Source: a virus
Strand: one strand, 5' to 3'
Virus record (IMG/VR): IMGVR_UViG_3300032241_002138
Span: 1 to 28,171 of that record
Length of the DNA stretch: 28,171 bases
The position numbers were made by a program, and so were the translations under genes. Below, one piece after another: positions 757 through 24,276 of this stretch. The notes below the pieces were generated by a model. The model saw nothing but the letters and a program-made list of their open reading frames with translations. It searched no databases and was not told the origin of the DNA. Position 1 is the stretch's first letter; each line of letters opens with the position of its first letter.

Positions 757-1899
757 AGTAATGAACTTCTACAAAAAGTAATTGATACTACGGACCTCGG
801 TTCTTCAGCAGTCAATGCATCTTCAGATTCCTCTACCCTTTCAGGTAATGGTCTTCTATATCCAGATCAAGCTAATCGCTTCTTGGATTATATGTGGGAT
901 GCAACAATTCTTGCTAAGGCAGCTCGTACAATCCGTATGCGTTCAAATACAACCGAAATTGATCGTGTTGCAGTTGGACAACGTATCATGACTGTTGCAC
1001 AGGAAGATAACCCACGTAATTTCGTGGCTAGTGGAGATAGCTATACAAATGCTAATGAAACAACTTTCTCTGCACAAAATGCAACATTTAACAAGGTTTC
1101 GCTTACTACTCGTAAGCTACGTCTTGACTGGGAACTTTCAGCAGAATCTCTTGAAGACAATATTGAAGGTCCAGATCTAGAAGACCACATTGCAAGACTT
1201 ATGGCTACCCAGGCAGGTAACGATATTGAGGATACCCTTATTAACGGTACAGGCACAGGGTCTGGTCTTATGTCAGCATTCGCAGGTTTCCGCACATTGG
1301 CTCTTAACAACGCTCACGTTGTTGACGCACAGGGTGTCGGACTTGACAAGGCGGTTTTCAACTTGGCAATTAAGACATTGCCTCGTAAGTACAAGCAACG
1401 CCGTAATCAACTTCGCTTCTTCACAGGATCGAATTTGGTTCAGGACTATCTATACAATCTAACAGCTGAGACCTCTTCAGGTTTCACACCATTTGATATC
1501 GCTTCAGGTATCCTACGTGGTGATGTTGCTGCTAACGATGGTGGTCCAGGTACAGTAACTCCATTTGCTTTTGGTATTCCAGTTATCAACGTTCCGTTGA
1601 TGGTTGAAACCCAAACAGGAGATTACAGCGGTGCATCAGGCCTTCATGGTGATGTACACTTGACGTTCCCACAGAACTTCATCATTGGTATCAAGCGTGA
1701 CGTAACTGTTTATCGTCTATTCCAGCCAAAGAAAGACACAATTGAGTACACACTCTTCATTCGTGTCGGTTGCGTAATGGAAAACTACGATGCACACGTT
1801 ATCGTTAAGAATATCAAGGTTGCAGGATCTGTTGCTTCAGGTGCTTTTGGATCTGTTACAAACAATCCAGGAATCACAGGAAACGGTAATACATACTAA
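754..1899 (+). CDS. Major capsid protein (HK97-fold type)
   Basis: This 381-residue protein has the size of an HK97-fold shell subunit and sits between the scaffold and the connector genes. The N-terminal segment (about 1-50) is Ser/Asp-rich. The core carries an alternation typical of this family: a helix rich in Glu/Asp (about 125-160, around LSAESLEDNIEGPDLEDHIA), a Gly/Thr loop (GTGTGSG), then a long basic helix (TLPRKYKQRRNQLRF, about 207-221). The C-terminus is small-residue-rich. Arg codons are almost all CGT/CGC and Lys codons mostly AAG, unlike neighbouring genes, as expected for the most abundant phage protein. A hairpin follows it. The family was recognised from overall pattern and position, without a database search. 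Confidence 0.85.
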   Translation: MSNELLQKVIDTTDLGSSAVNASSDSSTLSGNGLLYPDQANRFLDYMWDATILAKAARTIRMRSNTTEIDRVAVGQRIMTVAQEDNPRNFVASGDSYTNANETTFSAQNATFNKVSLTTRKLRLDWELSAESLEDNIEGPDLEDHIARLMATQAGNDIEDTLINGTGTGSGLMSAFAGFRTLALNNAHVVDAQGVGLDKAVFNLAIKTLPRKYKQRRNQLRFFTGSNLVQDYLYNLTAETSSGFTPFDIASGILRGDVAANDGGPGTVTPFAFGIPVINVPLMVETQTGDYSGASGLHGDVHLTFPQNFIIGIKRDVTVYRLFQPKKDTIEYTLFIRVGCVMENYDAHVIVKNIKVAGSVASGAFGSVTNNPGITGNGNTY

Positions 1900-1911
1900 T
1901 ATTTATTAGTT

Positions 1912-1952
1912 GCAAGGCGGGGGATTACTTATGTAGTCCCCTTAGCCATTTT
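1912..1952 (+). terminator. Hairpin after the capsid gene, probable terminator
   Basis: GGGGATTA (1920-1927) pairs with TAGTCCCC (1934-1941), giving 8 base pairs with one G-U and a 6-base loop. A short T run (ATTTT, 1948-1952) follows. The T run is weak, so the hairpin could equally be a 3' mRNA stabiliser or a partial terminator. Confidence 0.55.
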
Positions 1953-1953
1953 C

Positions 1954-1962
1954 TGATATAAT
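1954..1962 (+). promoter_or_regulatory. Extended -10 promoter TGATATAAT
   Basis: TG at 1954-1955 plus a perfect TATAAT at 1957-1962 forms an extended -10 element. No -35 match exists at the right spacing, because that region is the capsid-gene hairpin. Transcription would start near 1968-1970, about 16-18 bases before the ATG at 1986. Confidence 0.6.
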
Positions 1963-1985
1963 TAACAATGACGAGAGGAAGTCAA

Positions 1986-2384
1986 ATGTCTTTTACAGAA
2001 TTAAAAATTACAGAACTAAGAAAAGTTGCAGATACATTTGGAGTGGATGTCCAAGGATCTAAAACTAAACAGGAAATCATTGCTAATCTTGAAGAAGAAG
2101 GCATCAGTTATCAAATGTATGCAAAGTTTACAGATGCTGAAAAACAAGAAGTAAAGGTTCCCGAACTTGAAAGAAAGAAGAGAGAGCAAAAAATAATGAA
2201 GGCTACAGATACAGTTCTGGTTAGAATGGAAAGAAATAATCATTCTTATCAAACACAAGGTTATGAGTTCACAGCAGAACATCCTTTTGTTGCTATGCCA
2301 GAATCAGACGCTCAAAGAATTTTTGATACACAAGCAGGATTCCGCCTTGCGACTCCCCGAGAGGCTCAAGAGTACTACGCATAA
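1986..2384 (+). CDS. Small head-region protein with SAP/Rho-N-like N-terminus
   Basis: The 132-residue protein begins with a helix-extended-helix pattern (about 1-40: ELKITELRKVADTFGVDV, then KTKQEIIANLEEEGI) resembling SAP/HeH or Rho N-terminal domains, which often bind nucleic acid. A charged middle (Lys/Glu) and a mixed C-terminal half follow. The start at 1986 is chosen because AGAGGA lies 6 bases upstream. The ATG at 1968 is in frame but sits at the predicted transcription start, so it could only be used on a leaderless message. Position right after the capsid gene suggests a head-associated or accessory structural role; the actual function is unknown. Confidence 0.6.
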   Translation: MSFTELKITELRKVADTFGVDVQGSKTKQEIIANLEEEGISYQMYAKFTDAEKQEVKVPELERKKREQKIMKATDTVLVRMERNNHSYQTQGYEFTAEHPFVAMPESDAQRIFDTQAGFRLATPREAQEYYA

Positions 2385-2400
2385 ATAGGAGGTGTTTTGA

Positions 2401-3351
2401 TTGCAAACAATCAACACTAACAGTCAAGAAAAAATAAAGCTAGAGGTTTATAACAATGGAGTTCTGTCTCAAGCAGATTCTCTTCCAACACTATCAATCT
2501 ATGATGCAGATAATGATGCAACGGCAATAAGTGGGTTTTCTAATCTAAATGCTTATGATGAAAATCCAGCGGGAATTTATTCTTTTCTGTTAACTCCTGC
2601 TATTACAAATTTAAACCGTATGTTAGAGGTAAGATGGTCTTATACCATAAATGGCATAGCCGTGACTCAAACAGATTTTTATGCAGTTGAAACACCATAC
2701 TGCACTGTTTCAGAAGTTGTTGATTTCTTTCAATTTGGCTCAGAGCCATCTTATCCTAATTATGTTGATGCCAAGTCCATAGTCAGTGCAGAAAAGGTCG
2801 CTAGAACCATTATAGAAGGCTATACAGGCATAAAATTTTATACTTATTATGGAAGTCAAGAAGTCTATGCAATTGGTGCAAATACAATTCAGTTGACAGA
2901 AAAAATGTTGAGCATTGATCAGATGTATGAGAATCAAATTTTAGTATTTGATGGAACTCAAGATCCAGTCTATGATACTTTTGGCTATGAGACTGAAATC
3001 AGCCCAACAGGATATCAGTTAAGAATATGGTATCCAGCATGGCCAGATGGCTGGAATAATGAAATGGATCCAGAAATTTATGAATATGGTCGCTTTAGAG
3101 ATGGGTATCTTTATAAATTTGTTGGGCAAATTGGATATAAATATGTGCCAGAAGATATAAAGTTAGCATCAATGCTTTTGGTTAATGATATCCTTTCAAA
3201 CGATTACAATTGGAGAAATAAATATTTGTCACAGGTCGAACTTAGTGAAATTTCGTTTAAGATGGCTGGTGGAGCATTTAATGGTACTGGAAATATTACA
3301 GTAGATAATATTCTTGATCAATACCGTAAAGCAAATATTGTGATAATCTAA
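2401..3351 (+). CDS. Head-tail connector/adaptor protein with N-terminal Ig-like domain
   Basis: This 316-residue protein starts at TTG 2401, set by AGGAGG at 2388-2393 with a 7-base spacer. Residues 1 to about 97 form a beta-rich segment ending in a strand like TQTDFYAVE, resembling small Ig-like domains fused to head proteins. From about residue 100 (TVSEVVDFFQFG) the pattern becomes that of gp6-like adaptors: a short helix, a helix with VARTIIEGYTGIKF, a beta excursion and C-terminal helices (about 254-316). It precedes the other joining proteins, where the adaptor that binds the portal is expected. The role is assigned by position and fold pattern. Confidence 0.6.
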   Translation: MQTINTNSQEKIKLEVYNNGVLSQADSLPTLSIYDADNDATAISGFSNLNAYDENPAGIYSFLLTPAITNLNRMLEVRWSYTINGIAVTQTDFYAVETPYCTVSEVVDFFQFGSEPSYPNYVDAKSIVSAEKVARTIIEGYTGIKFYTYYGSQEVYAIGANTIQLTEKMLSIDQMYENQILVFDGTQDPVYDTFGYETEISPTGYQLRIWYPAWPDGWNNEMDPEIYEYGRFRDGYLYKFVGQIGYKYVPEDIKLASMLLVNDILSNDYNWRNKYLSQVELSEISFKMAGGAFNGTGNITVDNILDQYRKANIVII

Positions 3352-3809
3352 TGTTTAATAAAAATGTTGCAAATTCATTTATTGGTTCAGTTATGAATAT
3401 GTCTGCTGATGTATATACTCAGCAAAATGTTCAAGATCCAAATACTGGTGCTATTAAACGTCAATGGGTTTATGATCATACAATTCAATGTAAAATAGAA
3501 CCAGTAAAAATGAAAGGTGCTTCAACAAAAACAGATAATAAAACTTTTGCAAAAACATCTGATATGAATTATGATGAAAAGATGCAGCTTAAAATGTATT
3601 GTTTTGAATTGATGAGTAAGCGTTGGCGTATTGAAAATATAAGGTCAAGTGATAATAAATCAATATTTGTTGAAATAGACAAAATTGATTCACCAGATAC
3701 AAAGTTTGAAGTGACTGCCTCTCACGTAATTTTAGATCCATTTGGAAAAGTTGCTTATTATGAAGCAGTTCTTCTAAGAACTGAGCTACAAGATGACAAT
3801 CAAGCTTGA
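3351..3809 (+). CDS. Probable head closure (stopper) protein
   Basis: This 152-residue, beta-rich protein has its ATG overlapping the previous stop (TAATG), implying translational coupling. It contains a strand-rich core (QCKIEPVKMKG; KRWRIENIRSSDN) like the small barrel proteins that close the head after packaging. It sits second in the usual order of adaptor, stopper, gp10-like protein and terminator. No diagnostic catalytic residues are expected. Assignment rests on size, order and secondary-structure impression. Confidence 0.45.
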   Translation: MFNKNVANSFIGSVMNMSADVYTQQNVQDPNTGAIKRQWVYDHTIQCKIEPVKMKGASTKTDNKTFAKTSDMNYDEKMQLKMYCFELMSKRWRIENIRSSDNKSIFVEIDKIDSPDTKFEVTASHVILDPFGKVAYYEAVLLRTELQDDNQA

Positions 3810-4512
3810 AATTGATACAAATCAATTAGTAAAAAGTTTAGATGATTTTACCTCGAGTATAGAAGAACTTACTCAACCAGAAGTTTTGGATCAAATATCT
3901 CGTGCAGTATTTTCTATTACTGGAGAAAGATTTATGATTGATGTTGATAATTATGCAAGAATGAATAAAAAAGCTATGCATCACGTTTATGAGTGGGGAA
4001 AAGTTGGAGACAAAACGGCTAGACTTTTTGTATTAGAAAGATCTGCAATACTTGAAGGAACCTTAATAATATCAGCAAATTTTCTTCAATCAAGAATGCC
4101 AGTACCAATTAATCCAGAATTATTAATACCAGGAAAAACTGGTAAATTTGTTTCAAAACAAAGTATTTTTGCAAATAAAGCAGAGGTGATGGAAGCAGGA
4201 ACGCCAGTTTCTTTTATGGCTAAAAAAGTTATTGCCATGACAGGAACAGATGGAGTTGTTTTTGTAGCTCCAGGCACTAAAATAAATATTTTGCATCCAG
4301 GCGGTTTACAAACAAAAAATTCTTTTTCTAAATATTTACTTGAATGGTATACAAAAAATGGAAATGTAATTTTGGATTCATCTGGGTTATATGAGAGAAT
4401 AGCTAATGATGTGGCATTAGTCTTAAGCTCAAATAATTCTGGTGTTGCACAAATTAGGCAGGCAGTTACAGCAATTGCCGATCAAATAGATACGGGGGTT
4501 ATTATAAAGTGA
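3793..4512 (+). CDS. Tail completion/neck protein (HK97 gp10-like position)
   Basis: This 239-residue protein overlaps the previous gene by 17 bases. The N-terminus (KLEIDTNQLVKSLDDFTSSI) is a strand followed by an amphipathic helix, a layout typical of HK97 gp10-like neck proteins. A helix with MIDVDNYARMNKK follows. The long middle (about 90-165) is beta-rich. It lies directly before the putative tail terminator. It is longer than typical gp10 proteins, so an extra domain is likely. The role is inferred from the order of genes. Confidence 0.45.
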   Translation: MTIKLEIDTNQLVKSLDDFTSSIEELTQPEVLDQISRAVFSITGERFMIDVDNYARMNKKAMHHVYEWGKVGDKTARLFVLERSAILEGTLIISANFLQSRMPVPINPELLIPGKTGKFVSKQSIFANKAEVMEAGTPVSFMAKKVIAMTGTDGVVFVAPGTKINILHPGGLQTKNSFSKYLLEWYTKNGNVILDSSGLYERIANDVALVLSSNNSGVAQIRQAVTAIADQIDTGVIIK

Positions 4513-20818: not shown

Positions 20819-22426
20819 ATGGCTATTCAAATCAATGGTCCAGATGGATGGACATCGGTACAACAAATTCAAATTAATGGCCCAGATGGATGGACACCTG
20901 TTCAAAAAGGATATGTTTATGGTCCAAGCGGTTGGACTTTATTTTATTCACCATCATCATCTTTTTCTGCCCCAACAACTATATATGCTTCGGCAGACTC
21001 ATCAACATCTGTAGAAGTAACATGGTCTTCATCAACTCCAGATTCTGGTTATACCGTAACTTACGATCTTTATAGAAATACTACAGGGATTACACCAGGC
21101 AGCTCTCCATCATTGCTTCTAACAGGTGTCTCTGGAACATCAGAACATAATACTGGATTAACAACAGGCACAACATATTATTATTGGGTTAGGGCAGTTG
21201 AAACTAATGGTTCAATAACTAGTAAATCTTCTTGGACAGGACCTGCTGCTGCAGAACCTGTTTTGTTGCTTACTGCACTGACCCCATCATTATCTTCAGC
21301 TACATCAACTTCAGATGGATTTACATTTACTCTAAGTAATTATGATTCCTCTTATAGTTGGGGAATATCAACAAGTGCAGGCTCAATTTCTCCATCATCA
21401 GTTACTGCAAATGGAACATTTACTGTTAGCGGTCTAGCAGCAAGCGAAAGTGCTACTGTAACTGTTACAACATCAAAATCAGGATATTATAATGGCAGTG
21501 CTTCAGTAACAGGATCTGCATTAGCTTCAACAATATATTATGAGGCAACTTCTTTTTGGGACTTTCAAGATTCTTATTATATTACTAATCCATATTATGT
21601 TGGTACTGTTACATCTTTACCATCAGGAGTTTCTGCAAATACCTTGGTTACTGGAACATATGGATCAAAAAATGTTACTTATTATTATTACAGTACAATT
21701 AGTTCATCAAATGCTGTTTCACAACTTACTGCTTTAGGGCCAAGTAGCGGTGGCGGTAGCGGTGGCGGTGGCAGCACAAATAGCGGTGGCAGCACAAATA
21801 GCGGTGGCAGCACTTGCTCTTCTGGTGGCAGCACAAATAGCGGTGGCAGCACTTGCTCTTCTGGTGGCAGCACAAATAGCGGTGGCAGCACTTGCTCTTC
21901 TGGTGGAACAACAAATACTGGCGGGGGTGGTTGTTTTGTTTATGGAACACAAATTCAAATGGCAGACGGTTCATGGAAAAATATAGAAGATCTTTATATT
22001 GGAGAAGAGATAATGGCTGCCATTGTTCCCACAGTTCCAGATATAGAAGACCCGCTAGCTGATTATATTAATACTTGGTCAGCAACAAGTATTGTGGGAA
22101 CTACAAAAGGAACAGCATACGTTACAGATGTAGTAAATTTGTCTTTTAACAGATATTATTTGATTAATAATCAAGTAAAGGTTACATATGAGCACATTGT
22201 TCCAGTGCAACAAAATGGTATCTGGCGTTTTATAAAAGTAGAATCAATAAATGTTGGAGACATGATAATGGATGATAATTTAAATATAGTTCCAGTAATG
22301 TCTAAAGAATTAATTATTGATAATGTTAACACAACTGCTATTTCTATGAATGAAAGAGATATTTATTTCGTTAAAGGTATGATGGCTCATAATAACATTG
22401 ATGGCTCGATCGGCACAAAACAATAA
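20819..22426 (+). CDS. Tail-tip adhesin with Fn3/Ig-like domains and C-terminal Hint (intein-like) domain
   Basis: This 535-residue protein begins immediately after the fibre stop (20816-20818). Residues 2-43 are three 14-residue GPDGW-type repeats. An Fn3-like domain spans about 47-146 and an Ig-like domain about 150-232. A Tyr-rich segment precedes a Gly/Ser/Thr/Cys linker (about 309-371). Residues 372-525 form a Hint domain: Cys372 opens block A (CFVYGTQIQMADGSWKNIED), T456-x-x-H459 matches block B, and MMAHN (521-525) matches the terminal His-Asn. The +1 residue is Asn, not Cys/Ser/Thr, and only 10 residues follow. Classic splicing is therefore unlikely; cleavage or ester/thioester transfer at Cys372, as in bacterial intein-like domains, is the plausible activity. 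The calls are by motif only. Confidence 0.75.
   Translation: MAIQINGPDGWTSVQQIQINGPDGWTPVQKGYVYGPSGWTLFYSPSSSFSAPTTIYASADSSTSVEVTWSSSTPDSGYTVTYDLYRNTTGITPGSSPSLLLTGVSGTSEHNTGLTTGTTYYYWVRAVETNGSITSKSSWTGPAAAEPVLLLTALTPSLSSATSTSDGFTFTLSNYDSSYSWGISTSAGSISPSSVTANGTFTVSGLAASESATVTVTTSKSGYYNGSASVTGSALASTIYYEATSFWDFQDSYYITNPYYVGTVTSLPSGVSANTLVTGTYGSKNVTYYYYSTISSSNAVSQLTALGPSSGGGSGGGGSTNSGGSTNSGGSTCSSGGSTNSGGSTCSSGGSTNSGGSTCSSGGTTNTGGGGCFVYGTQIQMADGSWKNIEDLYIGEEIMAAIVPTVPDIEDPLADYINTWSATSIVGTTKGTAYVTDVVNLSFNRYYLINNQVKVTYEHIVPVQQNGIWRFIKVESINVGDMIMDDNLNIVPVMSKELIIDNVNTTAISMNERDIYFVKGMMAHNNIDGSIGTKQ
20822..20947 (+). repeat. Three in-frame 42-base repeats (GPDGW motif)
   Basis: Residues 2-15, 16-29 and 30-43 of the Hint protein share a 14-residue period. 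The first two differ at few positions in DNA (20825-20853 and 20867-20895, 27 of 29 bases equal). The third is degenerate (GPSGW). Confidence 0.75.
21785..21940 (+). repeat. 39-base tandem repeats abutting the Hint catalytic cysteine
   Basis: Three near-identical 39-base units (21785-21823, 21824-21862, 21863-21901) encode GGSTNSGGSTCSS. A diverged fourth unit (21902-21940) encodes GGTTNTGGGGCFV, and its Cys is the Hint catalytic residue. Cysteines fall at 333, 346, 359 and 372, exactly 13 apart. The tract is GC-rich against an AT-rich gene and extends leftward as GGS/TNS units from about 21743. Confidence 0.9.
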
Positions 22427-22445: not shown

Positions 22446-23024
22446 ATGGACAAAGAATACTTAGATGGAAAAATTGCTGTTTATAAAAATATAAATATTG
22501 ATTTAATGTCTTTGCTTTCAGATATTGGAACGGATGGTCCAGAATGGACTATTTCATATATGGATAATAGGGTTTATGATCCAAAAAGAAGAAATAATTT
22601 GGTGCTAGAGCTTGCACCTAATATTGATGAAATGAACACTAATCGTGAACTTTATGACAAGAAACAAAGATTACGACAAAAAATAGATGCAATTACCGCC
22701 CCATATATACTTGACTATTGTAAAGAAAATGATATAAAATTAAAAACCAAGATGTACTGGGACATTCTTCAGTATCGTGAGTCACAGCATATTGAATGGC
22801 ATAAAGATGATGGCCCACATCACAAATGTACAATATCTTTTGTCATTTATTTTAATGATGACTATGAAGGTGGAGAAATTCAATTTAAAAACTTTATGGG
22901 CGGAGGGCCAATTAAACCCGAACCTAATAGTATGCTTATATTCCCACCAACAGAAGAGTATTTGCATAGAGTAGTACCCATTGTTAGCGGAGTTAAGTTT
23001 GCAGCCATATCATTTGGATATTAA
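22446..23024 (+). CDS. 2-oxoglutarate/Fe(II)-dependent oxygenase (prolyl-4-hydroxylase-like)
   Basis: This 192-residue protein has the iron-binding facial triad H119-x-D121 (EWHKDDGP) and distal H174 (EYLHRVVP). Lys184 in SGVKFAAISFGY is at the usual place for 2-oxoglutarate carboxylate binding (Arg or Lys). The strand YEGGEIQF and the LIFPP turn also fit the double-stranded beta-helix fold. It would use O2 and 2-oxoglutarate to hydroxylate a substrate, which I cannot identify. The start at 22446 is chosen over an in-frame ATG at 22398 that overlaps the Hint gene, because the promoter lies between them. Its position after the tail-tip genes suggests a virion protein or host surface target. 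Confidence 0.85.
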   Translation: MDKEYLDGKIAVYKNINIDLMSLLSDIGTDGPEWTISYMDNRVYDPKRRNNLVLELAPNIDEMNTNRELYDKKQRLRQKIDAITAPYILDYCKENDIKLKTKMYWDILQYRESQHIEWHKDDGPHHKCTISFVIYFNDDYEGGEIQFKNFMGGGPIKPEPNSMLIFPPTEEYLHRVVPIVSGVKFAAISFGY

Positions 23025-23607: not shown

Positions 23608-24016
23608 TCGTATTGTTCAATCAGATAATGCAGTTGTTGATTATACTACAATTACAGCATTAATTAATGCTGTAAATGATTTACAAGTTCAGGTTGATAC
23701 TTTAAATAGTAATACAAATCATATAAATACAACCGTAGATGCATCTGGAAACGTAGTTCAAAAGTCTGTTGGACCAACCGTAGTTCATTCAGGACATCAA
23801 CCTTTTGTTGCAGGTCAATCATATGTTGACATAACATATCCAAATTTTAGTTCAAATCCAACTTTAGTTGCAACTTGTTCAGATAATACTGGAGTTGCAA
23901 GATATGCATATTTTTCTGGAGCAAATCTTCCAAAGACTTCCTCTGCTAGAATTAATATTACTCCTACCCCCACAAAAGCTTCTGGCTATGTTTGGTGGAT
24001 TGTAGTAGGTTCTTAA
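23600..24016 (+). CDS. Small beta-rich protein, possible tail-tip knob or H-type lectin-like
   Basis: This 138-residue protein starts at GTG 23600 after GAGGGGG, overlapping the previous stop. The N-terminal helix (about 15-45; ITALINAVNDLQVQVDTLNS) looks like a trimeric coiled coil. The C-terminal about 75 residues (HQPFVAGQSYVDITYPNFSS, then ASGYVWWIVVGS) resemble a small beta knob of the kind ending phage fibres. A helix-plus-knob design suits a short receptor-binding fibre. The assignment is from architecture only. Confidence 0.5.
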   Translation: MSNRIVQSDNAVVDYTTITALINAVNDLQVQVDTLNSNTNHINTTVDASGNVVQKSVGPTVVHSGHQPFVAGQSYVDITYPNFSSNPTLVATCSDNTGVARYAYFSGANLPKTSSARINITPTPTKASGYVWWIVVGS

Positions 24017-24276
24017 TGTACGAACCAATAAAATTTTGGACAAAAAGAGATAGAAGAATTAGCAGAGAAGGTTATATTTTAATTAAGGTTCCAGAACATC
24101 CTAAAAATTTTAAAGGTTGGTATTATGAACACCGCCTAATAATTGAGAAACAATTAAATAGAGTAATTGAGGATTGGGAAACAATTCATCATATTAATGA
24201 AAACAAACAAGATAATAGATTAATTAATCTTTTTATATGTTCAAGATTAGAACATAATAAAGCTCACGTAGCTTGA
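24016..24276 (+). CDS. Free-standing HNH endonuclease
   Basis: This 86-residue protein has its ATG in a TAATG overlap with the upstream gene. Its HNH signature is complete: EHR (38-40), IHHINENKQDNRLINL (57-72) with the catalytic HH and structural Asn residues, and LEHNKAH (79-85). This family makes metal-dependent cuts in DNA and often behaves as a homing-type selfish gene in phages. A longer in-frame start at 23992 lies inside the upstream gene and is unlikely. The gene sits between fibre-type genes and the metallophosphoesterase, and its stop overlaps the TTGACA of the next promoter. Confidence 0.88.
   Translation: MYEPIKFWTKRDRRISREGYILIKVPEHPKNFKGWYYEHRLIIEKQLNRVIEDWETIHHINENKQDNRLINLFICSRLEHNKAHVA

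Follow-up and report, generated by a model that had tools for sequence, protein, structure and literature searches.

The window analysed here is the whole 28,171-nucleotide stretch of the virus record IMGVR_UViG_3300032241_002138 (IMG/VR). One of its genes encodes a fibre-like protein in which a 13-residue tandem repeat leads into a C-terminal Hint domain, and the cysteines of the repeat stand in exact register with the first cysteine of that domain. The question raised by this locus is whether the register serves the chemistry of the Hint domain or is an accident. Our comparisons make it quite probable that the tract is a fast-turnover repeat linker, joining a phage fibre-like protein to a C-terminal Hint domain of the bacterial intein-like (BIL) type, and that the register is a local accident. 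The register itself is real, recent and lineage-specific, and its functional reading finds no support in the results given below.

The gene and its Hint domain

The features of the locus are as follows.

20819..22426, + strand: ORF of a 535-residue fibre-like protein with a C-terminal Hint domain, 3' of tail/fibre genes and syntenic with L174/L177
20966..21214, + strand: fibronectin type III-like domain, residues 50-132 (Pfam fn3, E 6.9e-5)
21743..21784, + strand: Gly/Ser-rich lead-in of the linker without Cys, SSGGGSGGGGSTNS
21785..21901, + strand: three identical 39-bp units, GGSTNSGGSTCSS, with Cys333, Cys346 and Cys359
21902..21940, + strand: diverged fourth unit, GGTTNTGGGGCFV, continuing into the Hint domain (24/39 identity to the repeat unit)
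21932..22426, + strand: BIL-like Hint domain, residues 372-535, starting at Cys372 (model, fold and profile matches)
22184..22195, + strand: TxxH motif, Thr456-His459 (invariant in 43 relatives)
22388..22393, + strand: His524-Asn525 near the C-terminus, followed by Asn526, which is no nucleophile (conservation, tally of the +1 residue)
22446..23024, + strand: 2OG-Fe(II) oxygenase gene directly downstream (PF13640, 1.2e-11)

The fn3 match (23.4 bits) is slightly below the curated Pfam cut-off of 25. The N-terminus of the protein (20819-20950) carries three copies of a motif of about 14 residues (INGPDGWTSVQQ-like), and KVSGAWK-type copies are found at the same N-terminal place in relatives, marine phage Hint proteins included.

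The C-terminal 164 residues form a confident Hint domain, which is nearest to BIL domains by both sequence profile and fold. Its AlphaFold2 model, with 43 aligned sequences as input, has a mean pLDDT of 90.6. The fold ranking (Foldseek, VIA-align 2) placed the BIL structures 6y75, 6tmm and 2lwy first, with mini-inteins and hedgehog next; the values were Z 19.5 (rmsd 1.8 over 140) for 6y75 and Z 18.7 (rmsd 1.6 over 131) for 2lwy. An alignment profile, which uses sequence alone, also matched 6y75 (1.6e-20) and 2lwy (1.2e-17). Thr456 and His459 are invariant across the 43 aligned sequences, and Cys372, His524 and Asn525 are at least 90% conserved, the Cys being absent from L174 and L177. The model, the folds, the profile and the conserved Cys, TxxH and HN thus bear out the initial annotation, which had placed a Hint domain with its catalytic cysteine at position 372.

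A single-sequence search against the Pfam Hint families (Hom_end_hint, Hint, Hint_2, PT-HINT and Vint) gave nothing above the curated cut-offs, and the best score was that of PF05203 (27.4 bits, cut-off 32.1). The domain is therefore not assigned to any single Pfam family, and it had no match above cut-off in the curated family libraries either. A Hint profile match (7.1e-16) was also seen in PDB 8w20 (residues 1083-1223), inside a solved protein of 1368 residues that is named just 'intein C-terminal splicing domain-containing protein'.

A-type BIL domains have a conserved C-terminal HN and reside in hypervariable regions of non-conserved proteins (PMC7765530). BIL domains are without a +1 nucleophile, and hence give mostly cleaved products (PMC7664689). 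In the window protein, HN is followed by Asn526, and the residue at this position is Ser in 3 of 38 sequences and Cys or Thr in none of them. The domain also lies in the variable region of a non-conserved protein, the bodies and linkers being unrelated between Hints that are 80-63% identical. It thus resembles the A-type BILs (2lwy of Clostridium thermocellum; 6y75 and 6tmm, BIL2 of Tetrahymena BUBL1) in Hint fold, Cys1, TxxH, terminal HN, missing +1 nucleophile and variable setting (PMC7765530, PMC7664689). However, identity to them is 20-23%, and the window Hint is C-terminal on a phage fibre-like protein, stands after a tandem repeat and has an activity that is predicted. From its sequence and model, we consider it a BIL-like Hint domain that is probably self-cleaving.

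Two other classes were ruled out. For a class 1 splicing intein, the deciding points were Asn526 after HN and the mere 10 residues left to the protein end. The autoprocessing domain of Hedgehog (1at0) is alike in its Hint fold (Z 16.7) and Cys-initiated thioester, whereas the window Hint has an intein-like HN end, gives no significant sequence profile match to it (E 0.39) and is without the sterol-recognition region; this last absence, together with an end 10 residues past HN, excludes a Hedgehog (hog) protein. In the 'large intein domain protein' of phage NCTB and a virion structural protein of Erwinia phage Alexandra, a Hint domain some 150-160 residues long likewise forms the C-terminal part of a large or structural protein, with Gly preceding the Cys and HN close to the end. 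They differ from the window in identity (27-28%) and in the spacer just before the domain, which contains neither a tandem repeat nor Cys.

If the domain works as predicted, Cys372 would perform an N-to-S acyl shift on Gly371, aided by Thr456 and His459, and the resulting thioester would be hydrolysed or captured by an outside nucleophile. Asn525 could cyclise and release the short tail. In either outcome, the repeat tract would remain as a flexible C-terminal tether of a fibre that is presumably located in the virion. The fibres would then be processed after translation by their own domain, which stays constant behind a linker whose length varies by slippage, and the locus would be a case, simple to assay, in which a phage structural protein undergoes intein-like processing, beside a conserved oxygenase.

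The repeat tract and the cysteine register

The 535-residue protein contains four cysteines, at 333, 346, 359 and 372, each exactly 13 residues from the next, as first described. The three DNA units at 21785-21823, 21824-21862 and 21863-21901, which had been called near identical, are in fact identical at 39 of 39 bases. The segment at 21902-21940 holds Cys372 and is identical to them, in phase, at 24 of 39 bases. Tandem Repeats Finder gives a period of 39 and a 96% match over 3.4 copies, a copy number that is uncertain, as metagenome assemblies can collapse perfect repeats.

The tract has a GC content of 54-58%, whereas the gene has 38% and the window 35%. It is high because of the Gly/Ser/Thr codons. 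GC content alone does not date the expansion, but the exact DNA identity of the units does, and the 13-residue array is a recent expansion. The recent expansion proposed in the initial annotation is therefore supported, by the identity of the units and not by the GC content.

We found that the 13-mer combines a 6-residue module, GGSTNS, with a 7-residue module, GGSTCSS. Two additional GGSTNS modules without Cys lie upstream of the array, and the fourth unit consists of GGTTNT, a diverged GGSTNS (13/18 bases), and then GGGG-Cys-Phe-Val. Cys359 and Cys372 are 13 residues apart since there is exactly one 6-residue module between the two. The three identical copies fix the remaining spacings, so that one coincidence is left to explain; it has one degree of freedom and a chance of about 1 in 13, and the odds are better as all modules begin with GG. 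Codon-shuffled versions of the fourth unit reach 24/39 at their best phase in 1% of trials. Because its best-phase similarity exceeds that of 99% of the shuffles, the last GGSTNS module is assigned, by sequence, to the array. Most of the fourth-unit similarity is in this module, not in the cysteine half. The likely explanation is that the repeat was born in this lineage by slippage inside a Gly/Ser linker, with the Cys codons carried along, and that the register with Cys372 comes from one diverged GGSTNS module adjoining the conserved GGGG-Cys start of the domain.

Linkers of related Hint proteins

The nearest Hint found, which is 80% identical, belongs to L258 (IMGVR_UViG_3300022602_000132) and has a Cys-free linker of the QNTQVASPPAPV type. 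Cys-free linkers also precede the Hint domains of L007 (68% identical; (IAT)n), L002 (63%; IATQNT units), L259 (56%; FFSPPA units), L008-L012 (44-45%; NPYSNPPPYDNTYY units, or NPPVYS units in L011 and L012) and L013 (34%; GVSPV units), and the repeat units in these linkers are unrelated to the 13-mer of the window. The initial annotation had proposed a role for the cysteines or their register, and had named in advance linkers of this kind in related phages as the evidence against it.

We then considered 148 distinct viral Hint junctions, a set biased to Gly-Cys because some searches required GGG before Cys, and the Gly frequency was not used as evidence. Low-complexity sequence lies upstream of 67 of the junctions, and six of these 67 have a Cys no more than 45 residues upstream. 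A Cys inside the repeat tract, as judged by eye on the listed sequences, was found at one junction of the 148, that of the window. The degenerate pattern GG-x-T-C-x-x-GG-x-T had 29 matches in all viral contigs, none of them with a Hint domain. Judged from the relatives, which are the whole of this argument, the cysteines would be neutral, and the most likely role of the repeat is that of an ordinary flexible linker; identical recent copies give no selection signal on the cysteines. L281 and L299, both distant, have Cys in Gly/Ser spacers that adjoin the Hint domain, outside any repeat and without a register of 13. More than one Hint-like start within one long protein was seen in L281, L299 and L320.

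The suggestion that repeat slippage gives linkers of variable length agrees well with the relatives. The Hint domains of L009 and L010 (163 residues) are identical and are preceded by 140 and 158 residues, and those of L011 and L012 are 99% identical and are preceded by 168 and 174 residues; the linker differences of 18 and 6 residues correspond to repeat units, although any single length difference may include assembly error. In 15 of 35 C-terminal Hint genes, the Hint Cys codon has a tandem array no more than 60 bp away. These sequence comparisons support a linker whose length would vary by slippage before a constant Hint domain.

No same-species record with a different copy number was found. 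The only near-identical record found, L173 (IMGVR_UViG_3300013093_000113), has a 100% identical tail protein and ends before the Hint gene. Named phages gave no DNA match. Bacterial genomes gave only distant Hints (Peregrinibacteria, Omnitrophota and others), the best at about 28-33% over the full domain, and no host was indicated. In the open library, no paper to the point on phage Hint domains with repeats was found.

Origin of the cysteines and genomic surroundings

The register could also mean that a duplication of the Hint junction gave rise to the repeat, whose Cys codons would be true copies of the catalytic one that decayed to GGSTCSS. In favour of this, the fourth unit has an in-phase similarity that 99% of codon shuffles do not reach, and it is possible, against the explanation that we prefer, that part of the unit originated at the junction. 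However, this similarity lies in the GGSTNS half (13/18), and GGSTCSS shares 11 of 21 bases with the protein's own GGGGCFV junction. When 71 junctions (the window's own and those of relatives without the repeat) were compared with GGSTCSS, the matches ranged from 7 to 14 bases with a mode of 10 (L002, 13). The match is ordinary among them; therefore the idea of a copied autoprocessing junction in each repeat finds no support, and by this measure the Cys half appears to bear no sign of being a copy of the catalytic junction. We regard an origin by junction duplication as unlikely. The same holds for the reading that assembly has partly created the exact copy number and identity out of a longer or more variable array. 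The record comes from a metagenome, assemblers often collapse exact tandem repeats, and L173 stops before the Hint gene, but the three 39-bp units (117 bp) fit ordinary read length and longer arrays were assembled alike in two samples (L174/L177).

If the cysteines are to have a function, they might serve as acyl acceptors, with the Gly371-Cys372 thioester passing to Cys359 or beyond, so that a thiolactone ring or a branched, activated end of the fibre would form. Intein thioesters are well known to exchange with thiols; the flexible linker adjoins the reactive bond, the Cys359 thiol could exchange with the thioester, and the 13-residue spacing and register would fit. Yet no close relative, down to the nearest 80% identical Hint, has a linker Cys, GGSTCSS is no more junction-like than other sequences, nothing in the comparison suggests selection, and a thiolactone requires any nearby Cys rather than an exact phase of 13, so that this reading is extremely improbable. 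If the register were functional, the Hint thioester would be put to a new use, but the relatives speak against it. Disulfide ladders between the linkers of adjacent fibre subunits, stiffening the tail fibre outside the cell, are somewhat likelier because L258 and L007 have Cys-rich fibre bodies, which makes disulfides plausible in such virions. The repeat cysteines are also the only ones besides the Hint Cys. Since the linkers of L258 and L007 are Cys-free and the feature is missing from all close relatives, ladders are decidedly unlikely as well. We give very little credence to a broader proposal, in which the BIL-type Hint is a conjugation device that activates the fibre end as a Gly-thioester and links it covalently to a partner, either on the host surface or elsewhere in the virion; the slippage-variable repeat would be an adjustable tether, the oxygenase would modify fibre or linker, and the linker cysteines would be extra acceptor or cross-link points.

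In addition to its linker, the fibre body seems to be exchangeable. The L258 protein (1760-4489) has a Hint domain 80% identical to that of the window and is likewise followed by a 2OG-Fe(II) oxygenase gene, but its Cys-rich fibre body is unrelated, the body match covering just 33 residues at 24%. Such similar Hints on unrelated bodies point to module exchange between Hint and body by recombination. L174 and L177 belong to the same phage group as the window, as synteny and a tail protein of 54% identity show. Their genes (L174:20156-23212, L177:18493-21549) encode an SFTPF repeat and then an apparently inactive Hint-like domain, which lacks the first Cys and has YD where HN would stand. Autoprocessing is therefore dispensable in some relatives.

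The oxygenase gene begins 20 bases past the end of the Hint gene. Its homologues are located directly 3' of the Hint gene in L258, L002, L007, L008-L012 and L261, and within about 0.5 kb of it in L013 and L003. The oxygenase may modify the fibre or the linker. The locus is of modest interest because it combines, in uncultured phages, a BIL-like domain with a repeat linker that changes fast and with an oxygenase gene as conserved neighbour. Such oxygenase genes follow the Hint-fibre gene of almost every close relative, at times as a run of two or three. A small ORF of the window at 23992-24276 has a putative HNH-endonuclease-like sequence (HHINENKQDNRLINL).
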